A stretch of DNA of 44,648 nt from Monosiga brevicollis MX1 (Eukaryota > Opisthokonta > Choanoflagellata > Craspedida > Salpingoecidae). Below, in pieces: positions 10,096-40,374 of this stretch (position 1 is the stretch's first letter; every line of letters begins with the position of its first letter). The notes under the pieces are model-generated. The model was not told the origin of the DNA. It worked only from the letters and a program-made list of their open reading frames with translations, and ran no database searches. The stretch spans positions 773,988 to 818,635 of the forward strand of contig NW_001865047.1 in assembly GCF_000002865.3 (NCBI RefSeq). Reading direction: 5' to 3'. A program made the position numbers and the translations under genes.

Positions 10096-16283
<6,188 letters not shown>

Positions 16284-18281: not shown

Positions 18282-19179
18282 ATGAGTTCAGATGGAGAGC
18301 TGCTGTACGGTGCGTGTACTTTACGGGATCCACAAGAGGCGCTGCAGCTGTTGGAAAGCTGGGACCCCCAACGAATTCGCTCCGCTGCCACTTACAAACA
18401 TGGCTGGGTGAGCATGCCATTTGATGGGACACTGGTGAATGATATTGGGTATGTGCCACTCATTTTTTTTTAATGCTCCACGTGGATCGACCACTAGGTT
18501 GCTGATACACCTCTGCATGAGGCCTGTCATAAAAATCTCGTGGAGGTAGTGCAGATCCTGTTGCGACATGGCGTCGATACTGAAGCCAAGAACAGCGTCA
18601 GTGCTGCCTCGCTTCTCTTCCTCAGTGGCTGTGTGTTTTGATGTTGTCCACTTCCCCCCTCCCCCGATCGGGCGCACCTGCTGTTGATATCCGATATTCT
18701 ACATGTAAAGAGCTCATCATGATGCTATGGTGATGCTACATCTGGACGTAATGGTGGGGCCAACTTCAGTCTGGCTACACGCCACTGCACGTTGCCTGCG
18801 TTGACGGTCACGTAGAAGTCAAGGAAATCCTGTTGAAGCACGGCGCAGATGCTGAAGCCAAGGACATTGTGAGTACTCATCCCCACTATGACTGTTCCTC
18901 CCCTTGCTCGCCTTCTTTTTGCACCCTATCTGCCGTCCCACCCCTTGCCTCTTTGGCCGTTTCCTCCTGCCGCTCCTTGCCCTTCTGGTTTGGGACATTG
19001 TTGCCCTGCCTCATATTGGTGAAGCCAATACACAACACGGGGCGCACACATCGCTCTTCCCCTCACATGCATCAATCGTCTGATGTTGGCCACAACCTCA
19101 GTGGGGTGAAACGCCCCTTGACTACGCCCGTCGACAAGGCCTCAAGTTGTCCGTGCCTGCTGACCACGAACAGTCTTAA
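18282..19179 (+). CDS. Small ankyrin-repeat protein (ankyrin paralogue 1)
   Basis: Four exons with phase-0 junctions: 18282-18407, 18498-18596, 18770-18868 and 19102-19179 (402 nt, 133 residues). Exon 1 encodes a 42-residue cap (DPQEALQLLESWDPQRIR) shared with the genes at 31711 and 37876. Exons 2 and 3 are each exactly 99 nt and encode one canonical 33-residue ankyrin repeat (DTPLHEAC...VEVVQILLRHGVDTEAKN; YTPLHVAC...LLKHGADAEAKD). The last exon starts a further repeat (GETPLDYARRQG) and then stops. Ankyrin repeats bind proteins; no catalytic part is seen. Compared with the 31711 gene it lacks the kinase and PARP parts, so it may be a shortened copy or a regulator that shares the same binding surface. 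Confidence 0.8.
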
Positions 19180-23746: not shown

Positions 23747-23985
23747 CAGAGAGAAGAGCGAGAGAGCGAGAGAGCGAGTGTGTGTGGCAACAGAGATCGG
23801 CTCACTGACTAGCCCGGGTCGACGGCGGGCAACATCTGCGTGTGATTTGGCGCACAGGGCAAGACTCGGCGTCTTTTGTGCCCGGTGTGGTCGACAGAAT
23901 CGAGTTGCTGTGCTGACGAACCGTGGCGATCGGTCGCCAGCCCCACTCGGAAGGATCAACCGCTAGCGATCTTGCCGCCGCCACC
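23007..23985. other. Intergenic with degenerate GA-rich tract
   Basis: Positions 23511-23775 are a degenerate GA/GAGTTT-rich tract with a purer (GA)n core at 23710-23740. The rest shows no coding pattern. The downstream start has a strong Kozak context. Confidence 0.55.
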
Positions 23986-26900
23986 ATGGCCCGGGGCTCG
24001 CACGCGATGTGGGCCTTGGCCGTGTCCATCGCCTGCTGCCTACTGGTGCTAACTGAAGCCCAACATTTCACACCTGGTTGGTCTTTTTTGCGCACATGTG
24101 CCGTGAAACAACACCATCCCCTTCGCCATCAACCATCTGATTTACACTGCGCTTCTTTCCATGTGACCGCTTCGCTTCGCCTCGTCTTGCTTGCCACCTC
24201 ACGCTTTCATCTTGTCGCTTCGCGTGCGCTGCTTCTGTTTGCAGCACAGGATCTCCTCGGGCTTGGCACACAGGTCATCAAGGCGGAAAACGCCAGCACC
24301 GACCCAACCGCTCCCTTGTACCAAGAGGGCAAGTGGGAAGTCAGCGGCATTGACGGCATTTATAGTGCCAAGTGTCGTTACTCCCAAGGCGCCGCCACCA
24401 TGACTGCCACCTTTAATGTACCAGTGGCCGACTATTACAATGTGTACGCCACATATTGCCCTCATAACGTGTATCGCACGACCCGCTCCGTCTTTGTCAT
24501 CGATTCCCCATCGACACCCGATGCCGAGCAAATCGTGGCTGTCAATCAGCGCACCGACGCCGCCCATCCCGATGGCCTCGAGGTTTTGCACAGTGTTTTC
24601 CTCAACCCAGGCCCTTTGACCATCCAACTGCGCCAATCCACCGGCGACCCCAACGGTACAATTTCTATCGATGCATTTGTTCTGCGTCGGGGTATCATCG
24701 TGGAGGCTGAGCACCCCGAATCCACCACCATCAACGGCACTTGGACAGAGAGCATCGACTATGATGGATATTTCGGCTCCTCCTACCTAACCACGACCGA
24801 GGAAGGGGCAACGGTGGATATGAAGACTGGAGCCCCCAGGCGTGACATTTACAGTCTATTTCTCCTCTCCGTTGCCGCACAGATTCGCGATGGCACGGTG
24901 GACGTGATTGTCTACCACGCTCTCGGCTCCACACCACTCATTTGGGACCAGGTGCGAACCCCCTCTTATTTGACGATGGCCTACCCACTGGCCAGATTCT
25001 TTGGCATTATTGAGCCTTGCGCTGCACGTTCTGAGTACAGTGCCTGCGCTCCTACGCCATCTCACCCTTTTTTATCCCCACGTCTCCTCCTCCTGCTTCT
25101 CCTCCTCCTCCTGCTTCTCGTCTTGCAGCATACCCATCCTACCTTTTTCGCGGGCAGCTTCACCTTGGACGGCGCTTCCCATGTCTTAATTGTTGTCAAT
25201 GGCACCGGAGACCGTGCCGTGGTCGTGGATGGCCTGTGGATCAAGCAGGCTGACATTGCCGACAACGACGATGCCTCACGCATCGCCACGATTGGCTCGT
25301 GGGGCACCTCAACCAACACGGCCGGCTACCTGGGAACCAGCTGTTAGTTGCTGGCCTTGATCTCGTTCTCGCCCAGTCTTACTCAGCTAATCGCCTGGCC
25401 TCACCATCTTCAACGCCTTGCTCTTGCTCCGATCCTACATTAGATGCTTACACCTCGGGCACCTCGGACAACACGTTCGTTGGATACAAGAGTATGATCT
25501 TCAAGTTTGAACCCGAGACCGCGGGTATTTATACCTTTTCCCTTACTTGGCGTCCATACACCTCGCGTGCCACCAACGCACTTTGCTCCGTGTTTAGCAA
25601 AAGCGGCGATGTCCTGGTCACGCGCATCAATCAGCGTAAGGCCCTGCCCAACGGCATGTTTCTCGACACCATCACTGCCGTCCTGCCCGCTGGCCTCACC
25701 AACTTTAGCGTGAGCAATTACTACATTGTCACCGAGGACGAGGACATTTCTCCCAGCCTCAGCGCCGACGCGGTGAGCCTTGCACCTCGAAACAACATTG
25801 TCTACGATGCAGACGTGCAGGGTGTTACCCTTATGGGTACCTGGGATGAGGAGCGGTACACCAGCTCTGATCGCGCCTACTCGGGCAGCACCTTTCTGTT
25901 GAGCGGTGACGCAGCCGCATCTGCCAACGTGAAAGCCCCGCATCTGGAGGGTGTGGCTGAATACGATGTGTACATCAGCTACGTCTATTGGTCCAGTCGC
26001 TCCAAAACCGTTCGCTACGAGTCTAGCGGCCCCTACGCTGTGGCGGGTAATCGCTCTTCAGATGTCGATCAGTCGGTCGATCCAAGCGGCACCTGGCAAT
26101 TCTTGCATCGCCAGGTCTTCGGTCACGGTCAAGGAGGTCTGATCATGACCAATCAGGGTTCGGGAAAAATGTGCGCCGATGCCTATAAATATGTGTTTCG
26201 CCGACGCGTCCCGTCGCAGCTGATTGATGCCGAGGCCCCACACTTGGTGACCTTTGTCGGATCGTGGGCTTTATCCTCTCACACGCCAGGCTTTCATGGC
26301 TTGGGCTACTTCCACGACCTCAACGAAGAAGCTGGCCGCAAATCAGTCACGTACCACTTTACGGTCAGCGCCCCAGGCAGATATCGTATTTACAGTAGCT
26401 GGGCTGGGGACGCCTCTCGTGCTTCCGACGTGCCCATCATGCTCTTGGGAGCGAGTGGCTACTCCTTCAATTTTACCATTGATCAGTCGATGCGGCGCTC
26501 GCACTACGTAGTGGCTGAAGTCACCTTGCCCGTGGGTGCGCTGGACCTAGTCCTGTCCAACGACGTGGCGCGCTATAGTTATCGGCAAACCTACGTCATT
26601 GCGGATATGTTCGCGTTGGTCATGGTGGAGGAGACATGCGATGGAGCAAGCACTACGCGCGACACGTCTGATCCGAATAGCATCGTGCCACGCTGCCGCC
26701 TGCAGGCCGATTGCCCTCTAGGGACCTTTCGCTCGGATGTAGACGAGTGCACACCGTGCACCGAAGCGCAGTACACGCCGGTTATCAATAGCCCAGCTTG
26801 TTTTGATGTGACGACTTGCTCACCCGGAGCCTACGAGCGTATTGCGCCTACCCTCTCGACTGATCGCAAGTGCCAGTTGTGCGAGGCTGGCACGTTTTTA

Positions 26901-28797
26901 AATGACACAAGTGGTCAATGCCAGGCCTGTACGGCCAACTGTGCCGATGATGAGCTGGTTGTGCAGGCATGCACGCGTGCTCACGACTTGCAGTGCGAGC
27001 CTCGAACTGAATGCGCAGCGTATGAGTTTGAGGCGGATACAGGAGTCCCAGGCCAGACGGATCGCACCTGCACCAATTGCACGCAATGTTCACCGGGCGC
27101 CTACGTTGCATCCGATTGCTCATCGACGGCAGATCGCAAGTGCGCCGCCTGTGACAGCGAGAGTTTTTCGAGCATCATCAATGCTGCCATCTGCCAGGGC
27201 ATCAACAGCTGCCTTCCCGGGCACTATCAGCTTGTGGCGCCCACGTCTAGCAGCGATGCTGAATGCCAGGCGTGTGCCGTGGGCAAGGCTGACACAGACT
27301 CGGACGCAGCGACGAGCTGCGTCAGTTGCGGCGATTTCAATGGCTATCAGGATCAAGCTGGGCAAGCGACCTGCAAGCAGCCCTCTACTTGTGCACCCGG
27401 GGCTGGCCAGTCCGTGGCACCCACGAGCACCTCCGATCGTGAGTGTGCCCCTTGTGAGCCAAACCGTAGCTTTCACAACGCTGGCACTTCTGCCCCTACT
27501 TGTCAAATCGTGACCCTGTGTGGCAAGGGCTACGTAATGACGCAGGCTCCGACAACGTCGACAGACCGAGTCTGCAGTCCATGCCCGGTACGAGTTGGAG
27601 TGTCGCGTATTGCTGATAACACCCTTGTCATTTCTGTCTGTTTGATGAGATTGCCACTTCTTGTTCTAACTTTTGTATCTTGGTAGGATGGCACCTTCAA
27701 AACCACGGCTGACACCCTTGATGAACAGGGCTTGTGTCAGACCGTCACTTCGTGCGAGGATGAAGAGTATGCAGCGCAGGCTGCGACTCTAACCTCGGAC
27801 GTAGTATGCCAGCCGGCGGCCATCGTGCTCTTGACCTTCTCGGAAGGCATCTCGGCTGTCAAGGGTGGAGCTTCAGAGCAAGGTGTTTTGGCCGCGATTG
27901 CCGAGGCCATCCGTCAGCTGGACAGCGGCTCGTCACTGCTTCGCTTGCTTCCCGTCTATGGCACCTCGAATCGTCGACGGGTTTCGACCATGATTGGCGC
28001 CAACGCGCTTTTCCCTTCCGTGACCGCCCGCAAAGCGTTTGAGCGTGAGTCACAGGATCTGTCCTTTACATACGACGGACAGCAATATTCTACATCGCAG
28101 ACTGAGGTGGGTGCCAGCACGGCATCTAGTGGCAAGTCCAACGTGGCCCTAGCTGCCGGGGTTGGCGCAGGCGTAGCTGTAGTGGCGTTGGTTTTGGTCG
28201 TTGTCTTTGCCGTGCGGCGTCATAAAGATGCCAAGCGCCGCAAAGCTGAAACACGCGAAGTCATTGCGTTTGAAAACCCCAACTATGAGACAACCCCACA
28301 AGACACTTTCAACCCGGTCTACAACGACTTTGAGGACCATGCAAGTGAGGACGCTGTGGGCTATACCGATGTGCCTGTTCGTAGCAGCGGCGATGCTGAT
28401 GGCGAAGGAGCCATGGGGTTTGGGGCAGACGACTATCTCGAGACGGAAGGTACGAGGGTGTATACATCCATGTTTTTTTTTTGTTTGTTTTTATCAAGTC
28501 GGGTCAATCTTCTCACTCACACGAGCCGTGTCGGTGTTTGAATCCGCAATCCCCTTTGCTTTTAGTGGAAACAGGGGATAATGAAGGGGGCTGTAAGTCA
28601 TGCCTGCATGCCTTGACGATGTCTGTGTCCTCTTCTCATTACTGATGCTCATATTGACCCGCTGTGTGGCCTTGCACTTTGTGGCAGATTTGGACGTGGA
28701 GATGCCCGAGCCCCAAGCCGAGGATGCGGGGTATCTTGAGGCAGATGGCTTTGATGGTGGATTCGATGATGATGATGATGACGCTTTCAACGGCTAG
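23986..28797 (+). CDS. Type I membrane protein: golvesin-like modules, TNFR-like repeats, tyrosine-motif tail
   Basis: Seven exons in consistent phase: 23986-24076, 24245-24951, 25129-25342, 25444-27587, 27687-28449, 28566-28592 and 28688-28797 (4056 nt, 1351 residues). The ATG sits in a strong Kozak context (gccgccaccATGg) and starts a signal peptide (WALAVSIACCLLVLTEA). The ectodomain carries about five golvesin/xanthan-lyase-like beta modules, each opening with an 'A(D/E)...GxW' motif (GKWEVS, GTWTES, GSWGTS, GTWDEE, GSWALS). These are followed by cysteine-rich TNFR/ephrin-receptor-like repeats (CSPGAYERIAPTLSTDRKC and similar) from about 26640 to 27815. One membrane helix (about residues 1204-1226) precedes a 120-residue acidic tail. 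The tail has two NPxY motifs (Tyr1252, Tyr1264) and YTDV, YLET, YLDV and YLEA (Tyr1278, 1302, 1316, 1331). It has no kinase or death domain. It is probably a surface receptor or adhesion protein read by SH2/PTB proteins. Confidence 0.87.
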
Positions 28798-29178: not shown

Positions 29179-30852
29179 CTATCGCAAATTGATAGAAATG
29201 TGAGGTGGTGGCGGTGTGGGTGGCACAGCCATACTGAAGAGCAGAGGCTTGTGTATAGATGTGCGTCTGACCTGGTCTGGGAGCTCATTAACAAGCGCGT
29301 AACCGAATTCGCGTTGTTTTTTCAAGCGGCGGCGCATCACAAAGGCCAGGCCACCACCCAGTACAAGCAAGGCGCCTAATAATGTGCAGCAAAAATTGAG
29401 GTGAGATAAACAGATGATGGACCAAGAGGCATCGGGCATGTTGAGCACAGAATCGGTTGCAAACAAGGTATGGACCGACAACGCACCAATTGAGATGGCT
29501 GCGAGAACACCGGTAGTGAGACCGTGCTTTCCGTCCCGCGCAGGCGCAGACGTGGTGGACGGGTTTGCTGTTGTTGCTGTGGTGGTGGTGGTGGTGGTGG
29601 TGGGGTGACATGACTTTTTGTTGTCTGAAAAGCGGATGTCAGACGCATCGCCTTGCGCCTGGAGGTGGGAGATAACAAAGGTGGCAAGGGTGGAGTTGGT
29701 CGTGCCATTGTTGGATGTCGTTGAAGCATTGAGCGTTGCCATATCACAGGCCAGCGCTTGGTGGGGATGAATGCCCTGAGTGGCGCGCTCCACTGAGGCG
29801 TTGGCAAAGAGGGACACCTTGAGGCCGGTCGCCAATTTTTCGGTGTAGCGAATTTCAACCAAGCGCAATGGATCCGTGCCGCCAAATTCAAAGCTGAGGG
29901 TTTCCGGGACCGGCAGGGTGGTGCGGTTTTGCTCTTGGGTCGGCGAACCAGCCAGCTCATCAACCCAAGTCAAGGTGATAACAAAGGATGAATTGCTATT
30001 GTTCACGCTTGAGGTCAAGCCGTTGACCCAGAGGCCATGGTAGGTACAGACCAGCTGTTGCACGGAGGTTGCGGCACCGTTGCAAAACACTCGAGGAGGG
30101 GCATTCTCCGAGGTGGGTTCATACACGATGAGGTCCTGAAAGCCAATACCAACACCTTGATCGAAAACAATTGTGGGCTCGTTGGGAGGCGATGGTGGTA
30201 GCGTGGTCGTGCTGACATTGGCAGGAAACGTGGTGGTGGCGGGATTTGTAGTCGTCGTGACGTTTGGCACTGTTGCAGTTGTGGTGCCGTTGGGCGTGGG
30301 TGTGATCGCTCCTGTGGTTGTTGTGACATTGGCAGGAAGAGCGGTCGTGGTGCTGTTGGGCATGGGCGTGGTCGCTCCTGTGGTTGTTGTGACATTGGCA
30401 GGAAGAGCGGTCGTGGTGCCGTCGGGCATGGTCGTGGTCGCTCCTGTGGTTGTTGTGACATTGGCAGGAAGAGCGGTCGTGGTGCTGTTGGGCATGGTCG
30501 TGGTCGCTCCTGTGGTTGTTGTGACATTGGCAGGAAGAGCGGTCGTGGTGCTGTTGGGCATGGGCGTGGTCGCTCCTGTGGTTGTTGTGACATTGGCAGG
30601 AAGAGTGGTCGTGGTGCTGTTGGGCATGGGCGTGGTCGCTCCTGTGGTTGTTGTGACATTGGCAGGAAGAGCGGTCGTGGTGCCGTTGGACATGGGCGCA
30701 GTGGCAGTCACCTGCACCACCACTATGAAGGGAGACGAAGCCAAGTGAGCATCGAGACGACCAGTGTTTGGCCGCATGGCCAAGCCACCACCACACCCAG
30801 TCAGCAAAGACGTACCAACAGCAAGCGCCAGTCTCATAGCCAACGTCGCCAT
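29179..30852 (-). CDS. Mucin-like Thr-rich type I membrane protein
   Basis: Three exons: 30816-30852, 29487-30722 and 29179-29375 (1470 nt, 489 residues), GT-AG with matching phases. The first splice creates a clean signal peptide (MRLALAVVVVQVTATA), which the unspliced frame lacks. Next come about six 22-residue Thr-rich repeats with N-glycosylation sequons (PANVTTTTGATTPMPNS), then a roughly 190-residue region with further NxT/S sites and no family recognised, then a poly-Thr stretch. One membrane helix (VLAAISIGALLVLGGGLAFV), intact only after removing the 111-bp intron, is followed by RRRLKK and a short tail with a PPTPPPP motif. It is probably a heavily O-glycosylated surface protein. 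It lies tail to tail with the receptor-like gene at 23986. Confidence 0.85.
   Translation of the reverse strand: MATLAMRLALAVGTSLLTGCGGGLAMRPNTGRLDAHLASSPFIVVVQVTATAPMSNGTTTALPANVTTTTGATTPMPNSTTTTLPANVTTTTGATTPMPNSTTTALPANVTTTTGATTTMPNSTTTALPANVTTTTGATTTMPDGTTTALPANVTTTTGATTPMPNSTTTALPANVTTTTGAITPTPNGTTTATVPNVTTTTNPATTTFPANVSTTTLPPSPPNEPTIVFDQGVGIGFQDLIVYEPTSENAPPRVFCNGAATSVQQLVCTYHGLWVNGLTSSVNNSNSSFVITLTWVDELAGSPTQEQNRTTLPVPETLSFEFGGTDPLRLVEIRYTEKLATGLKVSLFANASVERATQGIHPHQALACDMATLNASTTSNNGTTNSTLATFVISHLQAQGDASDIRFSDNKKSCHPTTTTTTTTATTANPSTTSAPARDGKHGLTTGVLAAISIGALSVHTLFATDSVLNMPDASWSIICLSHLNFCCTLLGALLVLGGGLAFVMRRRLKKQREFGYALVNELPDQVRRTSIHKPLLFSMAVPPTPPPPHISINLR
30285..30700 (-). repeat. 66-bp coding minisatellite (mucin repeats)
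   Basis: About six near-identical 66-bp units (22 codons) encode the Thr-rich repeats. Because 66 is a multiple of three and stop-poor, other frames on both strands also stay open here; these are shadows. Confidence 0.9.
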
Positions 30853-31710: not shown

Positions 31711-34700
31711 ATGAGTGATGATGGCAGGCAGCTGTTTGCTGCATGCTGTGCATCAGATCCACAAGAGGCACTGCAGCTGTTGAACGCTTGGGACCCGCAA
31801 CGTATTCAAGATGCTGCCGCTCACAGAGATGGTGTGGTACGTATGCTGTTTGGTCGATTTTGCCGTTGTTGTCTCATCTTCAAGTTGAATCCGTCCTTGG
31901 TTTGGGTTGACCCTATCCCACAGCAAGGCTACAGACCACTGCACGCAACCTGCAGTATGGGTCACGTTGAGGTGGTGAAGATGTTGTTGAAGCACGGCGC
32001 TGATACTAATGCCAAGGATTACGTCAGTACCTTCATCTTCCTTCCTCAGCGCCCCTCTGCTGGCCTCAAAACGCAATGTGATGATAATGATGCTGTACTT
32101 GTGCGCCATACTGATGCATCACACGATCTAATAGTATGGCAATGTGCCACTACATCATGCCTGCCAATACGGTCGTGTGGAGGTGGTGGAGATGCTGTTG
32201 AAGGATGGTGTTGATGCCAAAGCCAAAGCCACCGTCAGTCCAGACCTGCAACGTATCATGCTGCTGCTGTACCTGTAAACGCGATGCCTGATGCATGTTC
32301 TGACAGGATGGCAGTACGCCACTGCACTTTGCCTGCGCCCTCAATCATGTGGAGGTGGTGAGGATGCTGTTGCGGCACGGTGTGGATGCTGAAGCCAAGA
32401 CCAACGTCAGTTCTCCCTTCAAGCCCCATAATGACTGGCATAGCCACATGATAATGCTGATGTTGCCCTTGTATTCATCATATCACAGATTGGCAACGCA
32501 CCACTTCATCATGCTTGCCAATTCGGTCGTGGGGAGGTGGTGGAGGTGCTGTTGAAGCACGGCGTAGATGCTAAAGCCAAGAACGACGTCAGTACAGTAC
32601 CCCTCTCTCCTCTCCTCCTTTGGCGGCTAGTGCTCCTGTTTGCCCCCTGTGTCTGTCTCCCCTCTACATCCCTCCTCGCTTTGCGCGCGTGCTCCCGTGA
32701 TCCACTCTTCTGGCACATTGCTTCTCTTTCGTCTGAACGTCTCCCTGCCATCGTCGCTTTCTTTTGACTTGAACGCGACTTGTCTTCCCCTGATTTCCCA
32801 GCCCGCTTTGCAGCACTGCTGTATGGTCGCCCACCTCACATGTTCCGATCGTTTTGACTGTGGCCGTATTCTCAGCATGGAATGACACCTCTGATGTTGG
32901 GATGTTATTTTCAACATCACGACAAGCTGGAGCCCGTGTTTGCTGCCCACGAAGCTCGCCTCGCACAACCATCCAAGCCCCTCACACCACCACCACCACC
33001 ACCATCCGAGCGCCTCACTCCGCCTGCATCTGAACTGCCGACTGCCTGGCTGCCGCCTCTACCCGACTCGGCGCCCACCCTTGAGGTGAGTCTGCTTCCC
33101 CATGCCAAGTCCAACAGCCTCATCCAACCTAAGTGACCAATGGGTACCACACACTTTAGACCACGGCCTCTGTTGTGGTGGCCGTGGACACTTGGCTCAG
33201 GCCGCTCTTGCCCAAGCGCACCAGCACCCATCCCTTCCCACACCTCGATGCCTTTTTCAGTGGTGTTGCCAAACAAAACTCTGATCTTGCAACGAAGGTT
33301 GCTGGCGTTCAGAGGACCATCGACGAAGCCCCACCAGAGTTTCCTTCCATAAACTGGGCTCCCTTCCAGGCGACCACCACACAGGCTCTCAGCGCGCTTG
33401 GTCAGGCATTGGCAGCGCCCGAAGCGTTGAAAAGTCGCTTGAGGCAATTGAACACAAGCACCGACACACTGGAATCAATGCTGCAAGAGCTGCATGATGT
33501 CACTGCTCGGTTTGAACTGCAACCGGCGCTTCTTAAGCTTCAGACCGTGCTGGCAGCATGCCCCGCTTCACCCACCGCGCTGACAATCGCGCCCGAGACG
33601 CCGCCCGCCAACCTTGGTGCAGCCCTGGACAAAGTCGCCATACTACGCGACGTGGGACCTGAGCGCCAAGAATTGCTCGCCAGCGCAAACAGCAACCTCC
33701 AGCAGCTGGTGCTGGCGCTGATCGACGCTTTGGACGCCGTGGCAAAAGCGGGAACCTCCGACACCATCCATCGCGTGGAAACACTGCGACAATGCGCACA
33801 ATGCTTGGATGTGGATGCATCGCCTGCACCTGAGGCCTTGCCCGAGGCTTGGGAACAGCTGCGCCAAGCCCACGAAAAGCTGAGCCGGCCTGAACAGAAT
33901 GGCCTGGAGGAGCTCATGACCTGGAGTGTGGAGCATGACTATAAGCATCATGATTATTACCTAGCGTTTGCTCTTCACGAGGCGCAAGCTTTGACGCAGC
34001 AGTTGCAAGACATGATTGACTGGCAGGCCACGACGCGGTCTGTACTGACGACGTGCATGAGGCATGTGGAGAGTTTAGCGCAAGGGGTTGATGATGAATC
34101 GGTTTCTGTCCATGAGCAACTGACAAAACTGGAGACTGAGATTCAAGGTATCAACGCAGCAATGCAGCTCGTGCCCGAAGCTGTTCGCGCTACACTCCAG
34201 CAAGAACTTGTCAACCTGAAAGAGCGACACGTCACCTTGCAACAGCAATCATCAGATCAAACGCAGGTAGACCATACTGCAGAGCTCGCACAGCTGCTGC
34301 ACCAGCATTTCCCGGCCCTACTAGTCTTTTTGCACCCTGAGCAGAGTGCGCTTGGAGCGCGCCTGCGCACCGTGCTCGGCCCCGACGTTCCGACCAGCCT
34401 CATCTTGGAAGCCATGACCGAGGTAGACCGCACATTGTCGCTCTCCAGTCTGGGTCAGCTTGATCTTCATTACAATCAAAACCACAAGGTGTACAAGGCC
34501 CATGCCGCGCTACCAGATTGCCCTGAGCAAGATTTGGCCGTCAAGGAGTACGCTTTTGCTCGGCAACACAAACAAGATCAGTGTCGGACATTCCTGCGCG
34601 AGCTTCGCGCCATGCGCCAGCTTGAGCATCCACACATCATTCCTGTCCTTGGCGCGCTTGTGGATGTGCACAGTGGCCACCCCAGTGGATATTTGGTGCA

Positions 34701-36342
34701 GCCGTGGTGTGCGCAAGGGGATCTACAGCAGTGGCTGAGCAAGGCACGGCAGCTGGCCACCTCGACCGTGATTGCGGGACTCATGACTCAGCTGCGTACG
34801 GCCCTGGCGTTTATGCATAGCAAGGGCCTGGTGCACCGAGATGTCAAGCTGAGCAACGTGATGCTGGACGGCGAGGAGGACCAGCCTGTTGTGCGGCTGG
34901 GCGATTTTGACATTGTCAAGGCCGCCGCTGAAGCTACAATGTTGCCTTGCACGGCCACCGCGTCGTCAGGCACGACTGGCTACATTGCACCGGAGGTGCT
35001 TTTTGGCCAGGGTCGTGTGGGGGCGCGTCCAGCACAGGATGCCTTTTCCTTTGGCTGTGTTGTCTACAACACCTACATGTACCCAAAAACGGTGCCGGTC
35101 GCTCAGTCGCGAACCGATGAGGTCGTGGCTCATTGCAGATGGAATTTCCAAGCGGGAGATGATGCCTTCAGCTTTCCTCATCTGGCGGCCGAGGTCAGTC
35201 AAGTATTCTTTTTCTTCTCTTTGATTCCAAGACCCTCTGGTTGTCGTTCTCGTCGTCGTCGTTGTCGTAGCCGTCGTTGTTGTTGTTCACAGCTGTGTTT
35301 CTGTGCAGATGTGTGACGCGGCAAGCGATCTGTACAAGGAAACGCGAGCCTTGCTTGCAACAGATCCGAAGCAACGGCCAAGCCTATTGAGTGCTGGGCA
35401 AATTGCGCAGCCACCTGTCGCTGGTCATGTCGGGCCAGCCATTGACGTTTTGCGCGACGCACCCGAGCTTATCCCGGAGGTGCGTTGCTTGCTGGCACTG
35501 TAATGTTATATTTTTGACAAGCAGACTGATTTAAATCTACCGTGAAATTAGGTTGCCGAGCTGTTGGAACAGCTGAGCATTGATGGGCAAGGGCCAGCTA
35601 ACATCCAGGTGCAGCGGGTGGAGCGGGTACAGAACTTCGTGCTGTGGGAACGCTACAGCGCCAAGCGTCGGGAGATGTTGCACCGCATCACAAACCAGGA
35701 GCACTACACTCGGCTTCAAACGGCCACAGGAGATGCGCCCTCGGGCTCTCCAGCTCTTCTTCGCGATACATCCTGTCAAGAGCGCCTGCTACTCCATGGC
35801 ATCGCCCCGGACAGATCTCTGCGTGACAAGATTGCGCGCCTGGGCCTCGACCTGCGCTTTGCCGGCAGCAACGCCGGCCACCGATTTGGTCTTGGTGTTT
35901 ACCTGGCGGACCATCCCGGCAAGGTGTGGCTGCGATGGCTTTCAATTTGCGCTTCGTCCTTATGAGTGATGGTGTTCTAACGCGGCGGGTGGGCGCTTGT
36001 ATGATATTAGAGTCATCAATACACCGATGCTGGACCCGACGGCGAACGGATGCTCGTCATCACGCGGGCACTGCTGGGTCGTGCCTTTGTTCATCACTCA
36101 CCCTCTTGCGCAGCGCTGGCCCCTCCGCTCCTGCCCGATGCACCCAACAACGAGCGGTGTGTTGGACGGTATCTGCTGGTTTTTCTCACAGTGAAATCTC
36201 TGGCTCTGATGACCTGATTGTTGCCTCTTTTTTTAGATATGACTCTGTCATTGCGACGCCTTTTGGGGAATTTCACGAGGTCCTGATCTTTGACAATACG
36301 CAAATTTATCCCGAACTAGTGGTATACTACACGGCTGATTAG
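31711..36342 (+). CDS. Ankyrin repeat - protein kinase-like - PARP catalytic domain fusion
   Basis: Eleven exons with agreeing phases: 31711-31836, 31924-32022, 32135-32233, 32307-32405, 32489-32587, 32876-33085, 33160-35193, 35309-35479, 35552-35923, 36011-36168 and 36237-36342 (3573 nt, 1190 residues). Residues 1-42 are the family cap. Four 33-residue ankyrin repeats follow (43-174), one per 99-nt exon, then a degenerate repeat and a Pro-rich linker. Residues 245-665 are helical with no family recognised. Kinase-like domain, about 670-950: AVKEY (Lys706), HRDVKLSN (Asp805), APEVLF and DPKQRPS. The glycine loop is not recognisable and DFG reads DFD (826-828). ADP-ribosyltransferase domain, about 995-1190: RVQNFVLW, LLLHG (His1061), GVYLAD (Tyr1096), SHQYT, MLVITRALLG, RYDSV, and IYPELVVYY (Glu1182). 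This gives an H-Y-E triad as in tankyrase and PARP1, so auto- or partner ADP-ribosylation is plausible. Kinase activity is uncertain. Confidence 0.9.
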
Positions 36343-37875: not shown

Positions 37876-39475
37876 ATGGATGCTGATGGAGAGCAGCTGT
37901 TTGATGCGTGTGATTCAATAATGGGTCCAGAAGAGGCGCTGCAGCTGTTGACCAGTTGGGACCCACAACGTATTCGAGCTGCTGCCAAATACGAAGATTG
38001 GGTACGTATTCTGTTTGGCATGATATTACTATGAGTTCGGATATGTCGACGCTTGGTCTAACATGGGACACATACTGCATAATATTCGCGTCATCTCACA
38101 GGTTGCCCAAACACCACTGCACATGGCCAGTTATTTCGGTATAAAGAAGTGATTGAGATGCTGTTGGGGCACGGGGCTGATGTTAATGCCAAGGACGAAG
38201 TCAGTACAGTACCTCCCTCTTCCCCCTTACCCCGATGATGGTACACACCTGTGCCGCACGATGATGGTGATGGTGATGATGATGATGATCCTGTGCCTGT
38301 ACGTCATGTCGATGCACCATCCCACAGTGGTTGAATACACCACTGCACTTTGCCTGCCAATTTGGTCATGACGAGGAGGTGGAGATGCTGTTAGGGCACG
38401 GTGCTGATGTTAAAGCCAAGGCCATCGTCAGTACAGTACCTCCCTCTGCACCCTTTACTCCTATGATGGTGTACCTGTAACATATGATGATGATGATGAT
38501 GATGATGATGATGCTGTTGTACCTGTACGTCATGTCGATGCCTCATCGCATAGGATGGCGAAACACCACTGCACAAGGCCTGCGGTTGCGAAAACGGTGC
38601 TGCCGAGGTAGTGGAGAAGATGTTGGAGCACGGTGTTGATGCCAACGCCAAGAAGCAAGTCCGTACAGTACCTTTTTCCCCTCTGGCTGTAGCTCCTGCT
38701 GCTCTGCTTGTTTTCTTTGCGCCTTCTCTCTATCCTCTACACCCTGCCTCCCGTGCGCGCCCGTGCTGCCTCTTGCTCCTTTTTCTTTCCCGCTATCCCT
38801 CTCCCTCCCCCGTTTTGCATCCGCACAATGTCGGTTCTCCCTGTATCCTGTCCTGTTTCCCGCTGGTCTTTTCCGACTACCGTCCTTGCTCTCCCCTTTC
38901 TGGTGTTGTAACTTCAATCCGAACACCACGCAACCCCTTGTCATCGCGCCTCTGCCTCCCTCGCGCTCGAAAATAATATTAAAATGAAAACGTGCCTCAT
39001 GCTTTCGTACATTGATCAAATCATACAGGACGGCCAAACGCCGCTTCATGCAGCCTGCGCTGCCTACACTGCCAGCCGAAAAAGTATCCACCAACTCTTG
39101 CGACACGGTGCCGACCCGGATACGAGTGATCTTGTAAGCCTTTTACCACGATGCCGTACCTTTTGCGCTGTTCTGCTGCACCTGCGATTGAAACCTGATG
39201 ATTTGCTGTGGCAGACGGGTACACGACCCGTGGATCTGCTCCTTCACAGGGATTCCATCGAGCTGGAGGTGGGCTTTTTCTTTATTTGTGGTACTGATTG
39301 CAGAGGCACGCTTGCTTACCGATGAATCTGCTTCACTTTATAGCTGATTGAAGAACTACTGGGCGCAATCCGTACCCCTTGCTCCTACCACACTTCGAAT
39401 TCCCATGGTGCGAACCTGATTCACATGTCACTGTCCGCATTGTCTTGTTCTCATCGGATCTCAACGTGGCGTTAG
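37876..39475 (+). pseudogene. Ankyrin-repeat gene with a one-base frameshift (ankyrin paralogue 3)
   Basis: Exons by homology: 37876-38001 (42-residue cap, DADGEQLFDACD), 38102-38199, 38328-38426, 38554-38658, 39029-39133, 39215-39268 and 39344-39475. Exons 3-5 encode ankyrin repeats (NTPLHFAC..., ETPLHKAC..., QTPLHAAC...) of 33, 35 and 35 residues. Exon 2 is 98 nt where its paralogues have 99, shifting the frame at about 38141-38150 and giving a stop inside the repeat. All junctions are phase 0, so skipping exon 2 would give an intact protein lacking one repeat. A sequencing error is also possible. The final exon is odd: a second frame, open to 39648, reads more like protein, so the C-terminus is uncertain. 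There are no kinase or PARP parts. Confidence 0.65.
38483..38512 (+). repeat. (ATG)n microsatellite in an intron
   Basis: About ten GAT/ATG units in the intron between exons 3 and 4 of the third ankyrin gene. A shorter run sits at the same relative place in the previous intron (about 38263-38288), showing that the introns are copies too. Confidence 0.85.
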
Positions 39476-40374
39476 TCCAATGCTTGATCAATGCGGAGCA
39501 GGTCAGACGCTGGCGGTGCGCTGCTGCTGTTCTTTGTAGCGTCGGCTGGCGCGTGGATCCTCGATTGTTCAATATCCAAGACCTACAAACGCTTTGTGAC
39601 TGCCTGGCCGCTCGAACGTTCGCCGCTCAAACTGCACCTACAAATTGAAATTTGTGACGTTTGTGGTTGGCTTGTCGACCGCTATACAACCAGAGAATAA
39701 AGTCAAACGGGCAGGGCGGGCTTTGTCCAACGTCTGAAGCAGAACCAGTCCAACAACCACCGAAAAAGAGCGGGAAGCCATCTCGTCTTTATTCGCCATG
39801 CGTTGGATGAATGCGGTTGACATGAGCGGCTCTCACATCGTGAACCACACGAATCATGACGAACTCGTCCCCAACATGGTGCTTCGAGCTCAAGCGGCCA
39901 AACGGTTCGCCGGAGCAGACAACGCCTCAAGCTTGACAACACTTGAGCCTTCAATAAGCTTCATATAACCGACACAAACGTATGCAAAAACCCAACTCTA
40001 ATCTACCTTTATGAACTATTTTATCTGCACAAACTTGCTCTTTAGATACATTAACTTTAGGGCGATTGCAACATCCATTCCGCTCGTGCGCCCTTTGGCC
40101 TTTCACACACTCTCTCTGTTTCTCTGGGATGACCTCAGTGACTGACTTCTGCTCTGGTCATGACTTTCATCTCTCTTTCTCTCTCTATGACCGTTCTATC
40201 GACTCATGCTCTCTCTGTTTTCGCTTTATTTTCTTGCGACGCTCATTCACTCGCCACAAGATCTCTCTCATTTGCTCAACTCACCCGCAACACTCTCTCA
40301 ACTATTCTCATTGAATACCCGTCTCTCTGATATCAGTTCTCTTTCGGTCTTCCTCTCTCAGCACATTCAAGACA
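39476..40374. other. Intergenic, one weak small frame
   Basis: Mostly no signal. A plus-strand frame at 39798-39968 (56 residues, starting MRWMNAVDMSGS) has protein-like composition but no family and no support. The stretch 40085-40330 is CTCT-rich 5' flank of the reductase gene. Confidence 0.4.

Follow-up and report, generated by a model that had tools for sequence, protein, structure and literature searches.

The window analyzed here is a 44,648-nt stretch of the genome of the choanoflagellate Monosiga brevicollis MX1 (NW_001865047.1, contig 48 in our searches, positions 773988–818635). On its forward strand, at 31711–36342, it contains a gene predicted to join ankyrin (ANK) repeats, a protein kinase and an ADP-ribosyltransferase (ART) in one protein, which raises the question of what purpose such a combination would serve. 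The comparison of this gene with its relatives in the same genome suggests that it is one of a large, lineage-expanded family dedicated to recognition and modification, in which a nearly constant ankyrin framework carries five hypervariable positions. The most likely purpose of such proteins would be intracellular recognition of non-self or allorecognition, a reading to which we give about an even chance.

The gene model was rebuilt using only the letters of the window DNA. As described in an earlier, sequence-only reading of the locus, it consisted of 11 exons encoding 1190 amino acids, with GT-AG at each intron and no internal stops. The single frame encodes, in order, four to five ANK repeats, a long linker, a Ser/Thr-type kinase and an ART. 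Among 12 Pfam matches at E ≤ 0.01, Ank_2 (7.3e-38), Pkinase (2e-35, residues 700–950) and PARP (2.3e-8, residues 995–1127; 34.2 bits versus a cut-off of 26.7) each exceeded its own gathering cut-off, which bears out the proposal of three domains in one frame; the hidden Markov model matches suggested as a check for the kinase and PARP parts were both significant. Exon 1 (31711–31836; open frame and GT donor) encodes an N-terminal cap (MSDDGRQLFAACCASDPQEALQLLNAWDPQRI...), and it is followed by four ankyrin exons described below. Exon 6 (32876–33085, from the spliced frame) encodes a C-terminal ankyrin half-repeat and a proline-rich stretch; a similar stretch is present in many paralogs, at an identity below that of exons 7–11. 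The first part of exon 7 (33160–34485) encodes the linker (residues 245–686), which had no Pfam match and a single PDB sequence match at E 0.41. The kinase domain (residues 687–950) is encoded at 34486–35392 by the end of exon 7 and the start of exon 8, which are separated by an intron at 35194–35308. The spliced frame and the paralogs place the kinase end and a connector to the ART in exon 8 (35309–35479). The ART itself (35597–36342), located by the Pfam PARP match and a profile match to PARP12, is encoded by exons 9–11 (35552–35923, 36011–36156 or 36168, and 36237–36342).

To place this gene among its relatives, the 39.47-Mb genome (57 contigs) was searched with the window protein and with its parts. 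The whole protein gave at least 90 matches, with 48 of 280 candidates scored. The exon-9 query matched 59 of its 63 candidates, all of which were scored; 44 of the 59 matches spanned 106 or more of the 124 residues with an identity of no less than 54%, two others, spanning 108 and 119 residues, had identities of 48% and 39%, respectively, and 13 were fragments. All 55 candidates for the linker were also scored, and 53 matched in whole or in part. Exon-9 copies, as well as the tails described further below, were counted as sequence markers rather than as individually checked genes. Pairing by coordinates placed a kinase piece of exon 7 no more than 1.5 kb upstream of 40 of the 44 near-full-length exon-9 copies. 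Among the 30 best-scoring loci (L009–L038, including the window gene), which are spread over many contigs, exons 7–11 were present in the same order in all 30, with the same splice sites, and 27 had no in-frame stop over these exons. One of these loci (L021) has lost its exon-9 acceptor, while another copy (L040) is partial, lying at a contig end with only its linker visible. The recurrence of these exons in one order at all 30 loci shows the ankyrin-kinase-PARP fusion to be one gene design rather than a product of chance, and the marker counts point to a large, lineage-expanded family of about 40 kinase-ART copies. NCBIfam had no match above a curated cut-off.

An artefact of gene modeling, in which two or three neighboring genes were joined, would be compatible with the absence of exon 9 near 3 of 43 exon-7 matches and of a matched exon 7 near 4 of the 44 exon-9 copies. 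However, one of these four copies, on contig 37, does have a kinase, which is divergent (L042). Another, at position 9603 of contig 9, comprises exons 8–11 only (L041), and the upstream DNA of the other two, on contigs 40 and 44, was outside the data fetched. Such an artefact is highly improbable, given that all 30 best-scoring loci agree in exon order and splice sites and that the kinase and PARP parts diverge in a correlated way.

In the ankyrin part of the family, each full ANK repeat is encoded by a single 99-nt phase-0 exon in which a few codons are far more variable than most others. The window gene has four such units, supported by Pfam Ank matches and by unit lists: at 31924–32022 (exon 2), 32135–32233 (exon 3), 32307–32405 (exon 4) and 32489–32587 (exon 5), in which codons 1, 3, 8, 11 and 12 read Q,Y,A,S,M; Y,N,H,Q,Y; D,S,F,A,L; and I,N,H,Q,F, respectively. 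A survey of the 1.5 kb preceding exon 7 and of the longer loci found 74 units, with 71 distinct peptides; when four longer stretches further upstream were included, the set comprised 74 distinct DNA sequences from 30 genes. In the 71 peptides the entropy was 3.2–3.7 bits at positions 1, 3, 8, 11 and 12, and far lower at most others. The five-residue sets were distinct in 73 of the 74 units, with Tyr, Asn, Asp and Trp being the commonest residues. The best PDB sequence match of the ANK region was a designed ankyrin repeat protein (DARPin), and the variable residues of the aligned DARPin repeats flank G on both sides or lie in the helix pair, corresponding to positions 1, 3, 11 and 12 of the family units. 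From this alignment we infer that the five hypervariable residues would form a concave contact surface, and we refer to them as contact residues. What the family units share with DARPins is an ankyrin framework that stays fixed while residues on either side of G and in the first helix vary; they differ from DARPins in being natural, exon-encoded and fused to enzymes, with position 8 also highly variable.

To compare the rates of change of contact and framework codons, pairs of units were analyzed; these statistics describe the ANK units of this family in one genome, and units from one gene are not statistically independent. Among 89 pairs matched at 95% or more framework identity, the proportion of synonymous differences in the framework was 0.016, while that of nonsynonymous differences at the hypervariable positions was 0.552. 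Because picking pairs on the framework biases its difference downward, two tests were made in which the choice of pairs, by codons 13–33 or by introns, was independent of the hypervariable positions, even though these had been defined on the same units. In 53 pairs chosen on codons 13–33 alone (95% or more), the interleaved framework codons differed by 0.023 and the hypervariable codons by 0.473. In 19 pairs chosen on flanking introns alone (90% or more), the introns differed by 0.047, the framework third bases by 0.039 and the hypervariable codons by 0.488; at an intron threshold of 75% (312 pairs) the values were 0.120 for introns and 0.539 for hypervariable codons. The raw ratio of hypervariable to intron difference, for pairs with at least 90% framework identity, was 2.97 (95% interval 2.49–3.54, bootstrap over 19 genes). 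In all 2701 pairs, taken unselected and independently of introns, hypervariable dN (nonsynonymous divergence) was 3.7 times framework dS (synonymous divergence).

The question then is how these differences arose. Signs of duplication are visible in the units themselves, as the five units of one gene (L063) follow a repeated two-unit pattern consistent with tandem duplication of repeat exons, and neighboring units in some genes share part of their contact set (KIE is common to three units of L017), which suggests that units duplicate and then change. Turnover could in principle be the whole explanation, if duplication, gene conversion and exchange homogenized the framework and shuffled old contact variants, while unselected surface positions drifted. 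Few traces would be expected of exchange between frameworks that are almost identical. As exchange predicts, the difference in the 19 intron-matched pairs was larger for the whole framework (0.075) than for the introns (0.047). The hypervariable codons were also not linked to one another above the level of shuffles (71 units, with L030 and L031 dropped as recent duplicates), a result which fits turnover, even though by itself it neither proves nor excludes exchange. On the other hand, exchange would move framework and contact codons alike, yet the 3.7-fold excess over framework dS is above the neutral expectation. Moreover, changes in the hypervariable codons were concentrated in the first and second bases (0.62 and 0.50, compared with 0.38 for the third; 85 pairs), and several codons were locked by position, with Tyr encoded by TAT in 13 of 13 cases at position 1 and by TAC in 8 of 8 at position 12. 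Both observations point to selection at the amino-acid level, rather than blind randomization, and turnover alone is unlikely. A targeted mutator that randomizes the five codons, such as a diversity-generating retroelement, would account for the very sharp contrast between them and the framework. However, third bases changed less than the others, and adenines showed no bias at contact codons, where A varied at 0.477, C at 0.554, G at 0.534 and T at 0.385, while in the framework A varied at 0.161 compared with 0.094–0.114 for the other bases. On these base counts a retroelement of the adenine type was rejected, and a targeted mutator is very unlikely.

In contrast to the contact residues, the enzymatic domains are conserved. 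The ratio dN/dS was determined for 25 of the 32 modeled and aligned copies, which were the 30 best-scoring loci with L039 and L042 added; L020, L021 and L038 were excluded for stops or a lost splice site, L039 and L042 as divergent, and L026 and L037 were also left out. The median dN/dS over pairs was 0.261 for the linker (residues 245–670; 300 pairs), 0.125 for the kinase (300 pairs) and 0.162 for PARP (290 pairs, with 10 saturated or otherwise dropped), at a median dS of 0.77–0.94. Distances across copies were correlated between kinase and PARP (Mantel r 0.59, p 0.001), as well as between linker and kinase (0.42) and linker and PARP (0.31). Hence, in the 25 copies tested, the kinase and PARP domains are under purifying selection and are maintained together. 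Both enzymes have kept their catalytic residues almost without exception in the aligned copies.

The kinase of the window protein contains K706, E725, HRDVKLSN (803–810), DFD (826–828) and APE (854–856), among which Lys706, HRDVKLSN and APE had been placed correctly in the sequence-only reading, as had His1061 and Tyr1096 of the ART. HRDxKxxN is the Ser/Thr form of the kinase motif, and the VAIK Lys, alphaC Glu, HRD Asp, HRD+5 Asn and DFG Asp of Ser/Thr-type eukaryotic kinases are all present. In the 32 aligned copies Lys706 was found in 32, Glu725 in 30, and the HRD Asp, Asn810 and the Asp of the DFG position in 31 each. The window protein lacks a GxGxxG loop, with LGQLDLHYNQNHKVYKAHA at this place, and the Gly of DFG is also missing, as 30 of 32 copies have DFD, with GFE in L042 and DCD in L038. 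By profile the nearest solved kinases were ULK1 (9.4e-17) and PknB (about 1e-16). PADLOC matches, among those listed (25 of 32), all sit on the kinase domain. The divergent ankyrin-kinase-PARP copy L042 lies at 12000–21900 of contig 37, and its linker appears very short.

The ART has the H-Y-(E/I) triad and the PARP fold match characteristic of the PARP/ARTD superfamily. In the numbering of the 1190-residue model the triad is H1061, Y1096 and E1170, and in the 32 aligned copies His was found in 31, Tyr in 32 and Glu1170 in 32. The catalytic Glu had earlier been assigned to Glu1182 (YPE), but this was mistaken, as the HMMER alignment with PARP12 places Glu1170 (FHEVLIF) in the catalytic column; all 32 copies have Glu at 1170 as well as at 1182. 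In this alignment Glu1170 is opposite an Ile of PARP12, which we take to be the residue at the catalytic position of PARP12. A Glu in the catalytic column is required, yet not sufficient, for the formation of chains. The C-terminal gene model also needs a small correction, because 25 of the 32 copies, modeled under a nearest-GT rule, use an exon-10 donor 12 nt earlier, corresponding to 36156 instead of 36168, and have NER-YDSV, or a sequence close to it, with CVGR missing, while the other seven, including the window gene's own model, took another GT. The exon-10 donor of the window gene is thus probably at 36156, which would give a protein of 1186 rather than 1190 amino acids.

The order of ANK repeats and a C-terminal PARP domain had led to the description of the protein as tankyrase-like, which holds for the domain order, as in tankyrase (PARP5a/b, clade 4), but not for the ART or its surroundings. 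The best PDB matches of the ART were PARP12 (2.6e-18) and PARP15 (6.7e-15), while that of tankyrase-2 was far weaker (3.3e-9). Ranked by profile E values, which are not a tree, the nearest solved ARTs were PARP12, PARP15, PARP14, PARP10 and then tankyrase, and the segment VQ-ERVQN--LWE-Y is common to the family ART and PARP12. The ART is thus closest by profile to clade 3 PARPs, while the family protein differs from them in having Glu instead of the Ile of PARP12 and in the attached kinase and ankyrin repeats; Pfam listed no zinc finger, WWE or macrodomain in the window protein. It also listed no SAM domain among its 12 matches at E ≤ 0.01, and a kinase lies between the ANK and ART parts. The window gene has four 99-nt units and partial ends, compared with the 15–18 ankyrin repeats given for clade 4 in the available parts of one study (PMC2964712), and no tankyrase was found in M. 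brevicollis according to the accessible portion of another (PMC9688111). An orthologue of tankyrase with an inserted kinase is therefore already contradicted, and its probability is negligible. ANK repeats and PARP are also joined in clade 1A proteins, but these carry WGR and PRD, as described in the same excerpt on PARP clades (PMC2964712), where the family studied here has a kinase. A combination of ANK and PARP in M. brevicollis is mentioned in the consulted part of a further report (PMC4245714), and the protein meant there could belong to the family studied here. A kinase domain in a PARP protein is not mentioned in the parts consulted. Our literature search retrieved no paper on an ankyrin-kinase-PARP protein, though the 2008 Monosiga genome and kinome papers were not covered by it, and none on hypervariable ankyrin repeats of choanoflagellates, which does not establish their absence from print.

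The closest parallel to the diversified repeats is found in NOD-like receptors (NLRs) of the fungus Podospora. For one Podospora NLR, the sections available of Dyrka et al. 2014 (PMC4986451) report positive selection at five positions of the ANK repeat, all but one on the concave face. As far as these sections go, the Podospora proteins and the family studied here share a conserved repeat framework with few hypervariable positions (five in ANK), duplication of units, large family size and several alternative effector domains, with PKinase among those of the Podospora NLRs. The ANK units described above likewise show high internal conservation, with a near-identical framework and few fast-changing positions, their concavity being derived from the DARPin alignment. 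Unlike the fungal NLRs, the family is not fungal, has no NACHT or NB-ARC, carries its repeats at the N terminus, each encoded by one 99-nt exon, and ends in a kinase and an ART. Pfam gave no NACHT or NB-ARC match in the window protein; eight NACHT matches occurred elsewhere in the genome, none of them, by coordinates, at a kinase-PARP locus. By analogy, the family could be a germline-diversified recognition repertoire, which would work like the repeats of fungal NLRs without NACHT and be wired to kinase and ART outputs; the case for and against this is, in our view, evenly balanced. In such a repertoire the five-residue ANK surface of each gene would bind a different protein ligand, and the binding would bring the kinase and the ART onto the bound protein or, alternatively, release them to mark the receptor and its neighbors. 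The diversity would come from duplication and exchange of single-repeat exons combined with strong selection for new contact residues, which is how the available text describes the ankyrin, TPR and WD repeats of fungal NLRs (PMC4986451). The suggestion of the sequence-only reading that one protein may phosphorylate and ADP-ribosylate its partners remains a fair conjecture.

The main rival to recognition of non-self is a diversity of endogenous substrates. In this explanation the proteins would be housekeeping adaptors, each copy recruiting a different endogenous protein in order to phosphorylate and/or ADP-ribosylate it, with no immune role. The layout of ANK and ART is known for substrate recruitment, as in tankyrase with its many partners, according to the parts consulted of three sources (PMC9688111, PMC2964712, PMC4245714), and the conservation of both enzymes agrees with such a role. 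However, stable endogenous partners should keep contact residues fixed, and 73 of 74 contact sets are distinct. The difference in contact codons is also about tenfold that in the flanking introns for the 19 closest pairs, and about threefold for the wider set. Even neighboring exons of one gene can differ strongly, as units 120 and 343 of L013 have introns 0.91 identical and contact codons 0.73 different, while gene fragments and broken copies show turnover in the family. We consider housekeeping adaptors rather unlikely.

Several observations nevertheless weigh against an immune repertoire. The immune role itself is argued from analogy, and diverse endogenous substrates would favor diverse contacts too. 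Since NACHT and NB-ARC are missing, the activation step of NLRs has no counterpart here. The activity of the kinase is uncertain in view of DFD in place of DFG and the absence of GxGxxG, and in the divergent copy L042, which has HGH for HRD and GFE for DFG, the kinase looks dead and the ART, with its triad intact, kept. In another copy (L026) Tyr replaces the ART His. Within the 1.5 kb searched, no 99-nt unit was found at three loci (L026, L030 and L035), framework positions 16, 29, 32 and 33 are also fairly variable (2.0–2.3 bits), and the recent duplicate L031/L032, which is among the intron-matched pairs, shows no contact change. Finally, the excess of framework over intron difference in the 19 intron-matched pairs makes exchange of exons between genes likely, beyond substitution in place, so that the intron is an imperfect clock and part of the contrast in rate between hypervariable codons and introns may stem from exon exchange.

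The size of the putative repertoire is about 40 kinase-ART genes, up to 44 short-tail genes and at least 150 single-exon ankyrin units. We hold it possible, at somewhat below an even chance, that a single-celled relative of animals maintains a DARPin-like repertoire in its germline, with phosphorylation and ADP-ribosylation as its output, serving immunity or allorecognition and being neither an NLR, a Toll-like receptor nor an antibody system. If this were true, recognition repertoires of the fungal-NLR type, built on repeats, would have arisen in another lineage with different wiring, and a choanoflagellate would offer a tractable system for studying how germline libraries of binders are generated and coupled to enzymes outside animals and fungi. 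The ankyrin units would allow a natural test of the contact positions that evolution selects for a DARPin-like library, and the presence of a kinase and an ART in one chain would make cross-talk between phosphorylation and ADP-ribosylation directly testable.

The short-tail genes were recognized from the surroundings of the window gene. The neighboring gene at 37876–39648 (forward strand), a member of the same superfamily directly downstream, has similar N-terminal and ankyrin exons followed by a short tail without kinase and PARP; its opening exon at 37876 resembles exon 1 of the window gene by eye, and one of its ankyrin exons is 98 nt long, which breaks the frame. A third ankyrin gene of this superfamily, at 18300–19170 on the same strand, comprises a partial N-terminal exon, units at 18498–18596 and 18770–18868, and a short ending, with no kinase or PARP match of the family listed near it. 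The short tail of the neighboring gene had 57 matches in the genome, 44 of them at E ≤ 5.1e-15, and a best Pfam E value of 0.081. When the best 150 of 838 candidate ankyrin units in the genome were surveyed, the closest marker downstream, sought over 8 kb of the same strand, was a linker in 80 cases and a tail in 53, and the remaining 17 had neither. Counting with the linker as the only marker gave 81 units near a linker and 69 not, from a list which included one guessed position on contig 40 that matched no unit. At least one of these 150 units was found upstream of 33 of the 44 tails. Four regions downstream of non-linker units were inspected, of which two were about 90% N and two contained ankyrin units and no kinase-PARP exon. 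These data indicate a second gene class with similar ankyrin exons and another, short tail, and its products could act as adaptors, decoys or regulators.

Two further ideas about the family were considered and dropped. A viral origin found no support, as a viral-contig scan with a PARP alignment gave 82 pattern matches and tblastn found no relative. A subtelomeric location was suggested by 19 of the 40 exon-9 copies on contigs of known length, which lie within 50 kb of a contig end, but assembly breaks at repeats explain this equally well. No telomeric array was found in 18 contig-end stretches, eight of them all N, and four tandem TTAGGG units occur once in the genome, while two contig ends look alike by eye.

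The rest of the window contains other features. The open reading frames at 25254–27683 and 23917–25344 contain Golvesin_C domains (4.3e-22 and 8e-13), and the former also has TNFR-type cysteine-rich repeats (2.4e-18), an unusual pairing with Golvesin_C in one frame. The open reading frame at 40315–41289 matches the Reeler domain (1.1e-6), and the DNA downstream of it looks like further exons of a membrane protein. Two tandem arrays are also present, at 30281–30698 (66-bp unit, 6.3 copies, 96% matches) and at 492–1536 (215-bp unit, 4.9 copies, 97% matches).

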